A stretch of DNA of 64,000 bases from Hirsutella rhossiliensis (Eukaryota; Ascomycota; Sordariomycetes; Hypocreales; Ophiocordycipitaceae): NCBI RefSeq assembly GCF_020360975.1, contig NW_025408671.1, positions 930,001 to 994,000 on the forward strand. The letters run 5' to 3'. The notes below the pieces were generated by a model, which had not been told where the DNA came from, ran no database searches, and saw only the letters and a list, made by a program, of their open reading frames with translations. Positions 55,812 to 56,438 of this stretch are shown here, in pieces; positions within the stretch are counted from its first letter, which is position 1, and every line of letters starts with the position of its first letter. The position numbers and the translations under genes are program-made.

Positions 55812-56438
55812 ATGTCTAGTCGCGTGTCGAAGGATCGTTCTCGTAAGACCCTTAAGCGCATTCGTTTAGCTAAGTCTATTAATCGTCTTAGTTTCGACGT
55901 TATGCTATATTCTTTCTATTCGTCGCGCGGCTTCCGCTGCAAAATGCTAGAGAAATCTTCTAAGTATGCCGAATATGTGCGGCGGGGTCGTTCCTGCGAT
56001 GCGTCGGGCGTAGCGATTAGCTCTCGTAGGTAACTTCGTTGTCCTGCCTATTATTTGCAGCTAACGTGTTTCCTAGTATCCCGAATAAATCTAGAGTCCG
56101 ATCGATTAGATAAAGAAGAAGAAATTGCTAAGGAGCGAATATTAAAAGCTTAAGCCGACCTAAACGAAGCCTTAGCTCGTTTAGCGCGGCTTCGCCGTTA
56201 AAAGCGCTAGCTAAAGACGAAGGGTACCGAGATAGTCCGTCGGGGCCTTCGTTCCTTAGATGACCTTAACGAGGCTAAGCGCTAAGAATCTAAAGCGGTA
56301 GTCGATGTTTAGTCTATAGGTGGATTTAATATAATTAATTAGAATGCTATTAGTTCGTTAGGCGATTTTACGATGCCTAGGGTAGATTTTGCTAGTAGAA
56401 CTATCGAAGCAGAGAACCGTAGTAGGTTAAGTGCTTAA
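55812..56438 (+). pseudogene. antisense Zn(II)2Cys6-type accessory gene of Gypsy-C3
   Basis: 627 bp from ATG to the stop 56436-56438 in one frame, 191 residues if the 51-nt intron is removed. The first 30 residues are very basic (SKDRSRKTLKRIRLAK). Residues 33, 36, 43, 52, 55, 62 are Y, Y, C, Y, Y, C with spacing x2, x6, x8, x2, x6: the binuclear zinc cluster of fungal transcription factors. Each Tyr codon is TAT, one TpG-to-TpA step from TGT. After the intron, LSRINLESDRLDKEEE and ALARLARLRR form a likely coiled coil, as expected of a dimerising regulator. A conserved-looking C-terminus reads VVDV then SIGGFNIIN and ends SRLSA. Six exonic stops (56151, 56199, 56208, 56283, 56310, 56340) are TAA or TAG, so it is dead. 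Identity rests on spacing and is not verified by search. Confidence 0.72.
56026..56076 (+). other. predicted 51-nt spliceosomal intron in the antisense gene
   Basis: Donor GTAGGT at 56026, branch-like GCTAAC at 56060-56065, acceptor CTAG ending at 56076. The length is a multiple of three and typical of fungi. The segment contains the first in-frame stop (56031-56033), which splicing would remove, joining ...AISS to LSRI. A GT-AG intron on this strand cannot be spliced out of the gag-pol RNA, so it can survive retrotransposition. Confidence 0.6.

Follow-up and report, generated by a model that had tools for sequence, protein, structure and literature searches.

Organisation of the element and its antisense gene

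The 81.8 Mb genome of the fungus Hirsutella rhossiliensis contains, within a 64,000-nucleotide stretch of contig NW_025408671.1 (positions 930001-994000, referred to here as the window and numbered from its first letter), three copies of Gypsy retrotransposons, c1, c2 and c3, that carry an additional gene on the strand opposite to gag-pol. The c3 copy is a 7.8 kb element on the minus strand, and its antisense open reading frame (aORF), which is degraded by repeat-induced point mutation (RIP) and recognised from its translation and its homologs, lies on the plus strand at 55812..56438. The element is bounded by two long terminal repeats (LTRs) on the minus strand, the 3' LTR at 55206..55675 and the 5' LTR at 62569..63038, and by a 5 bp target site duplication with GTCTA on both sides (left 55201-55205, right 63039-63043). 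Its pol, likewise on the minus strand, comprises a reverse transcriptase match (58144..58761), an integrase in two pieces and two frames (56430..57804) and a 3' end at 56395..56838, which matches the chromodomain frame of an element elsewhere in the genome, L089, and overlaps the tail of the aORF, so that aORF and pol meet tail to tail. These LTRs, duplicated target sites, polypurine tract, reverse transcriptase, integrase and chromodomain are those of a Ty3/Gypsy chromodomain retrotransposon.

Since the integrase, chromodomain and reverse transcriptase all lie on the minus strand and a polypurine tract adjoins the left LTR, the latter is the 3' one, and the frame at 55812-56438 runs antisense. 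An earlier sequence-only reading had placed the gene antisense to gag-pol and between pol and the 3' LTR, and this is borne out; it is also the position of accessory genes of the brtn kind, which are considered below. The 3' LTR and the aORF start are separated by a 136 nt leader (55676..55811, plus strand) that contains the complement of the polypurine tract at about 55681-55694 and an inverted repeat, GGTCTTA-N4-TAAGACC, at 55695-55712. A GGTCTT...AAGACC inverted repeat adjoins the polypurine tract in c3 (55695-55712), L089 (1816-1833), L090 and the L091 element.

The corresponding antisense regions of c1 (24181..24790) and c2 (42582..43190) are on the plus strand and heavily RIPed. The aORF begins 136 nt from the LTR end in c3, c1 and c2 alike, as had been proposed, and the proposed starts (55812, 24181 and 42582) are correct as positions; only c3 has ATG there, and c1 and c2 have ATA, a RIP-type change. 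The antisense frame is found in all three copies, but as independent lineages they count for two, because c1 and c2 belong to one subfamily: they align along their whole length and are 88–95% alike, save for one 48-nt stretch and one intron stretch at 85–88%. The repeat map indicates that c3 is nested inside c2. A TATA box is present upstream of the aORF in c3, c1 and c2, and none was seen when one was looked for in L089.

Cysteine positions and RIP

The zinc-cluster segment of c3 (55908..55997, plus strand) consists of six Cys or Tyr codons with the spacing x2-x6-x8-x2-x6, and was assigned from the Cys found in relatives and from the predicted fold. All three copies have Cys or Tyr at these positions with this spacing, as originally described: c3 has Y33, Y36, C43, Y52, Y55 and C62, c1 has C36, Y39, Y46, Y55, Y58 and Y65, and c2 has Tyr throughout. 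Searches of the genome gave at least 40 scored matches each to the c3-type and c1-type regions, and 60 loci loaded from such searches reduced to 31 distinct c3-type sequences. Among the 186 cells that these provide, 51 are Cys, 135 are Tyr and none is any other residue, the codons being TAT (115), TGT (37), TAC (20) and TGC (14) with no others. A single copy among the 31, L008, has Cys at all six positions with the exact 2-6-8-2-6 spacing. The number of Cys tracks the GC content of the copy (r 0.79) and relatives have Cys, which upholds the suggestion that Tyr is the product of RIP acting on Cys codons.

A probable intron

The c3 aORF appears to be divided into two exons (55812-56025 and 56077-56438) by a probable spliceosomal intron of 51 nt at 56026..56076 on the plus strand, which has a C|GTAGGT donor, a branch-like GCTAAC and a CCTAG acceptor and contains an in-frame stop. 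That stop, at codon 74, is TGA in 15 and TAA in 16 of the 31 c3-type copies and is probably intronic, hence more than plain RIP damage. The donor is GT in 27/31 copies and AT, a RIP-type change, in the other 4, and both a branch-like CTAAC or CTAAT and an acceptor end of CCTAG or CTTAG are retained in 31/31. Removal of the segment from c3 gives SSLSRI, which is the junction found in the homologous proteins P0015 and P0027. Five others (P0001, P0006, P0011, P0014 and P0020) have SSR and then read through an insert at the intron place, and P0010 and P0013 also have an insert there, with other letters. L089 has no intron at this place, and a candidate in c1 and c2 was rejected, being only 35 nt long in c1 and lacking the donor in c2. 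An intron on the antisense strand could not be removed by splicing of the genomic RNA; it would therefore persist through retrotransposition and would mark a true antisense mRNA.

Homologous proteins and the zinc-cluster assignment

Relatives were gathered by an initial search (4 proteins), a profile of those (60) and a third profile (220, of which the best 120 were taken), to give 170 different proteins in all. The names among the matches listed include Metarhizium, Colletotrichum, Verticillium, Pyricularia, Apiospora, Cordyceps, Corynascus and Cytospora. One protein, P0061 (Hirsutella rhossiliensis HRG_004433), is identical to the L089 open reading frame over 187 residues, and three (P0031, P0037 and P0052) bear the UniRef label Zn(2)-C6 fungal-type. 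A six-Cys motif is present in 153/170, as against 4 of the reversed sequences and 0 in each of 100 rounds of shuffling, and of the 49 proteins among the first 60 with letters at all six columns, 45 have six Cys. Relatives with an open frame thus exist, and most of them have Cys rather than Tyr.

The Zn2Cys6 family (PF00172) has the spacing C-x2-C-x6-C-x5-12-C-x2-C-x6-8-C. The 153 homologs with the motif fall into 79 with 2-6-8-2-6, 47 with 2-7-9-2-7 and 27 with some other spacing. The first class, to which the window positions and L008 belong, agrees with the PF00172 spacing; the second, which includes L089, L091 and P0061, does not, and is described here only as working like a member of that family. 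In PF00172 profile searches, which the sequence-only reading had called for, matches with E up to 1 were obtained for 25/60 and 15/110 homologs with a best E of 0.0007, but the best printed score, 19.5 bits, lies below the curated cut-off of 21. A search of PDB sequences gave only weak matches, with GAL4 (E 0.88) among coiled coils, and a search of viral contigs found no relative. Two AlphaFold2 (AF2) models, with predicted local distance difference test (pLDDT) values of 83 and 88, resemble zinc clusters of the GAL4/HAP1 type, at low Z, with a long coiled coil after them; in a second structural comparison Zn2Cys6 domains made up 14/15 rows and 3/4 rows.

The aORF product is a protein of ~190 residues with a basic N-terminus, a six-Cys cluster, a long coiled coil and an acidic tail with a conserved Trp. 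The basic N-terminus and coiled coil were anticipated and are confirmed by the protein set and AF2 modelling, and the mean net charge of the last 45 residues is -5.25 over 140 proteins. With Cys in the homologs, open frames and purifying selection (see below), the view of the gene as a zinc-cluster regulator is supported, and the protein is predicted to bind zinc and DNA.

The host genome contains at least 100 Zn2Cys6 matches, from which an element could have captured a gene fragment that now has no role. The homologs in several genera and a dN/dS of 0.16 make such an origin scarcely credible, as does the comparison with 20 host Zn2Cys6 segments, which revealed no likeness at the sequence level beyond the Cys spacing.

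Un-RIPed copies and selection on the antisense frame

Un-RIPed elements of the host genome, such as L089 and the L091 element, have an open antisense frame beside integrase and chromodomain frames. The L089 element is not itself intact, its integrase and chromodomain being in different frames, and its aORF tail differs from that of L090. Four more loci (L092-L095) are close to L091; in L094 and L095 the motif is absent from the longest open frame, probably through a frameshift. A group of repeated host Zn2Cys6 matches (L041-L048) was considered as intact copies and rejected, as these are other loci. L041-L045 hold a different Zn2Cys6 frame in five closely similar duplicated host loci, three of which adjoin a copia-like fragment.

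Selection was measured on L089 and L091, a single un-RIPed pair, over 168 aORF codons in the gap-free blocks of a DNA-only alignment. The antisense frame contains no stop and gives dN 0.31 and dS 1.95, the latter near saturation, with a dN/dS of 0.16; the differences fall 47/40/92 over the three codon positions. The frame that shares its third positions gives 0.29 and has 5 stop codons, and the other frames give 1.33, 1.44, 1.91 and 1.39. Purifying selection, the absence of which the sequence-only reading had named as refuting its proposal, is therefore found in this pair. Among the 31 c3-type copies, variation other than that due to RIP shows no periodicity by codon position (transversion or >2-allele columns number 2, 12 and 7 at positions 1, 2 and 3), so these dead copies are uninformative on selection.

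The same result bears on whether the antisense RNA might be the working product, through double-stranded RNA, silencing or interference with gag-pol, and the protein secondary. Control of this type is discussed for plant elements in the part of one review consulted (PMC7264820), and the tail-to-tail overlap of aORF and pol would be in keeping with it. RNA-level action does not call for purifying selection on amino acids or for the conservation of six Cys, and is considered very improbable as the main function.

The aORF and U3 vary together

When c3, c1 and L089 are compared, U5/R (79–84% alike), pol (76–88%), the pol end (65–83%) and the leader (56–73%) all align, whereas U3 upstream of the TATA box (55447..55675, minus strand, in c3, where the sense TATA is TATATATA at 55432-55439) and the aORF are only 36–52% alike, with local scores that mostly resemble those of shuffles. 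Weak signals above shuffles are seen for c3/c1 in exon 2 (z 4.9) and c1/L089 in U3 (z 3.6). The edges of divergence lie near the TATA box and the pol end, both for c3 against L089 and for c3 against c1. In a dinucleotide-shuffle test of U3 pairs, 21, 30 and 42 of 100 shuffles were as good as the c3-L089, c3-c1 and c3-L091 element pairs respectively, which are thus unlike, and the weak likeness of L091 to L089 was equalled by 0/100.

The L089 and L091 elements provide the clearest comparison. Their pol is identical at 552/581 nt (dS 0.18), U5/R is 97% identical over 255 nt, and identity is 88% from the LTR end across the leader; against this, the aORF has about 65% DNA identity, with the dS of 1.95 given above, and U3 above the TATA box barely aligns. 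A protein tree with 81 rows, obtained by thinning 153 plus four sequences of our own, places the c3 type among the 2-6-8-2-6 proteins and L089 in the x7 group, each clade containing several genera; the forks that divide the two clades have values of 93/96 and are not starred. Of nine loci in the genome that match the L089 aORF, seven are accompanied by a U3 of the L089 type where one would be expected, in one case a partial one, a pairing that descent alone would also give. It seems that aORF and U3 diverge, or are exchanged, together.

Constraint on an element is often weakest in the LTR U3 and in accessory genes, and the two segments could each be evolving fast and separately, with neither exchange nor a functional link; the intervening leader, less diverged than both, would fit. 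Fast amino-acid change alone is insufficient, as the silent divergence of the L089/L091 aORF is about ten times that of the adjacent pol or more (dS 1.95 against 0.18), and the c3 and L089 aORFs are found in different multi-genus clades. Fast, independent evolution of the two segments is accordingly regarded as improbable.

During reverse transcription the 3' end of the RNA supplies the U3 sequence and the 5' end that of U5. A single template switch close to the pol end would hence carry the aORF, polypurine tract and U3 across but not U5/R or pol, in agreement with the observed pattern. As the aORF and U3 lie side by side towards the 3' terminus of the genomic RNA, such a switch may swap both at once, so that factor and site would stay matched and related elements could gain different control specificities.

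Candidate sites in U3

Inverted repeats with arms of at least 7 were counted over the stretch from the LTR through the leader. L089 has 12, as against 0.72 in shuffles (maximum 2 in 60 rounds), its near copy L090 has 11 and c3 has 4 against 0.95 (maximum 4); no excess over shuffles is seen in c1 or c2. With looser arms and U3 alone, the counts, with the shuffles that do as well in brackets, are 8 in L089 (0/100), 3 in the L091 element (4/100), 2 in c3 (8/100), 3 in the c3 5' LTR (1/100), 3 in c1 (23/100), 3 in c1R, the right-hand c1 LTR (12/100), and 7, mostly A+T, in c2 (1/100).

The tetramer GATC, which was picked only after the repeats had been seen and is outranked by CCAA in L089 and by GTAA in L091, occurs 13 times in the L089 U3 against 4.1 expected and 9 times in that of the L091 element against 2.5 (0/200 shuffles each). 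The counts are 3 against 0.70 in c3 (5/200), 3 against 0.83 in c1R (9/200), 2 in c2 (6/100) and 1 in c1 (49/100). In the un-RIPed elements the U3 GATCs are mostly within the inverted repeats, and there is no excess in U5/R (L089, L091, c3 and c1R), the leader (L089 and L091) or aORF and pol (L089, L091 and c3).

Within c3, a candidate binding site is provided by the inverted repeat GATCACGG-N6-CCGTGATC at 55459..55480, which lies some 20 nt upstream of the sense TATA and is present in 17/20 fetched copies when RIP-type changes are allowed. It contains CGG-N6-CCG, a usual type of site for a Zn2Cys6 dimer. A perfect inverted repeat near the c1 TATA box was dropped, as it is imperfect in c2 and in the right-hand LTRs of c1 and c2.

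On balance, we favour the view that the aORF is an accessory gene of Ty3/Gypsy chromodomain elements whose product, a zinc-cluster dimer, acts on its own U3 to regulate gag-pol. The protein would bind zinc, dimerise and occupy inverted repeats located in U3 of its own LTR, immediately upstream of the sense TATA box, and this occupancy would control gag-pol transcription. Activation appears slightly more probable than repression, given the acidic, Trp-containing tail. The protein could instead be a real zinc-cluster protein directed at host promoters or chromatin, for instance to relieve silencing or to steer integration, for which the same protein evidence (six Cys, the predicted fold and the dN/dS of 0.16) serves equally and to which a pol ending in a chromodomain lends some weight, as the element already deals with chromatin. 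Host targets would leave unexplained both the joint variation of U3 and aORF beside conserved U5/R and pol and the GATC excess in U3, and we think them unlikely.

Going beyond regulation of gag-pol by its own antisense product, we tentatively suggest that the antisense zinc-cluster regulator and its cognate U3 sites may form a self-contained 3' cassette that moves between lineages as a block by template switching, which could place closely related elements of one genome in separate control, or cross-regulation, groups like phage immunity types.

Other elements in the window

Several further elements surround these copies. A copia-looking element with long open frames, a GC content of 0.49 and little RIP lies within the RIPed c2 at 45805-51956, with direct repeats at 45805-46262 and 51500-51956 that are 96–98% alike. 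The element at 15194-21359 has identical 202-nt direct repeats at its ends and, by eye, broken gag-pol-like frames on the minus strand. Un-RIPed minus-strand frames at 37335-38921 appear by eye to be DDE transposase-like, broken over several frames, and more degraded Gypsy reverse transcriptase matches are found on opposite strands at 1062-1700 and 6750-7100.

Relation to known systems and significance

Antisense genes of fungal Gypsy elements are already known from brtn of the Boty-like retrotransposons of Botrytis cinerea, which is reportedly the subject of Zhao et al. 2011 (Virology 417:248). The Zn2Cys6 regulators of the GAL4/HAP1 type (PF00172) share with the aORF protein the six Cys and a coiled coil after the cluster, and its AF2 models resemble their fold at low Z; the aORF protein differs in being short, in its sub-cut-off printed Pfam scores and in having, in one class, x7 between Cys 2 and 3. 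An antisense gene near a 3' LTR with a regulatory role is HBZ of human T-cell leukaemia virus type 1 (HTLV-1), which encodes a bZIP protein; it resembles the aORF in orientation and position, and no homology is claimed. The immunity modules of temperate phages, in which a repressor and its operators are exchanged as a block between similar elements, offer an analogy only, as the proteins and life cycle are unrelated.

The brtn gene of Boty, as an additional antisense gene in a fungal Gypsy element, is cited in PMC8365987, PMC7264820 and PMC4227169, and a Monilinia transcript resembling BRTN is reported in PMC5987419. Like the aORF it accompanies a gag-pol with a chromodomain (PMC4227169); in the portions of these accounts consulted, compared by description, there is no reference to a zinc cluster, an intron or a connection with U3, and neither Botrytis nor Sclerotinia appears among the named aORF homologs listed, most matches carrying no name. 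According to the sections seen of PMC7264820, which also cites an antisense promoter in the HTLV 3' LTR, the plant antisense aORFs (Grande gene23, RIRE2, Retand and PvRetro13) likewise lie between pol and the 3' LTR, occur in most family copies and are possibly regulatory, but they belong to other element lineages, have no clear likeness to known proteins and are not reported there to have a zinc cluster. The same review describes as unknown what antisense genes do in LTR retrotransposons. Literature searches, judged by titles and the starts of abstracts, yielded no report of a retrotransposon antisense gene that codes for a zinc cluster, and within that literature the zinc cluster, intron, breadth and U3-linked exchange appear to be new.

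In the aORF family a single element combines a protein class with a probable intron, a test of selection and a candidate target. Moreover, nature provides pairs of near-identical elements distinguished chiefly by the regulator and U3, and with such pairs and a candidate target, the idea that a retrotransposon runs a transcription factor of its own becomes directly testable. A regulator linked to U3 also suggests why element families might not cross-regulate one another.
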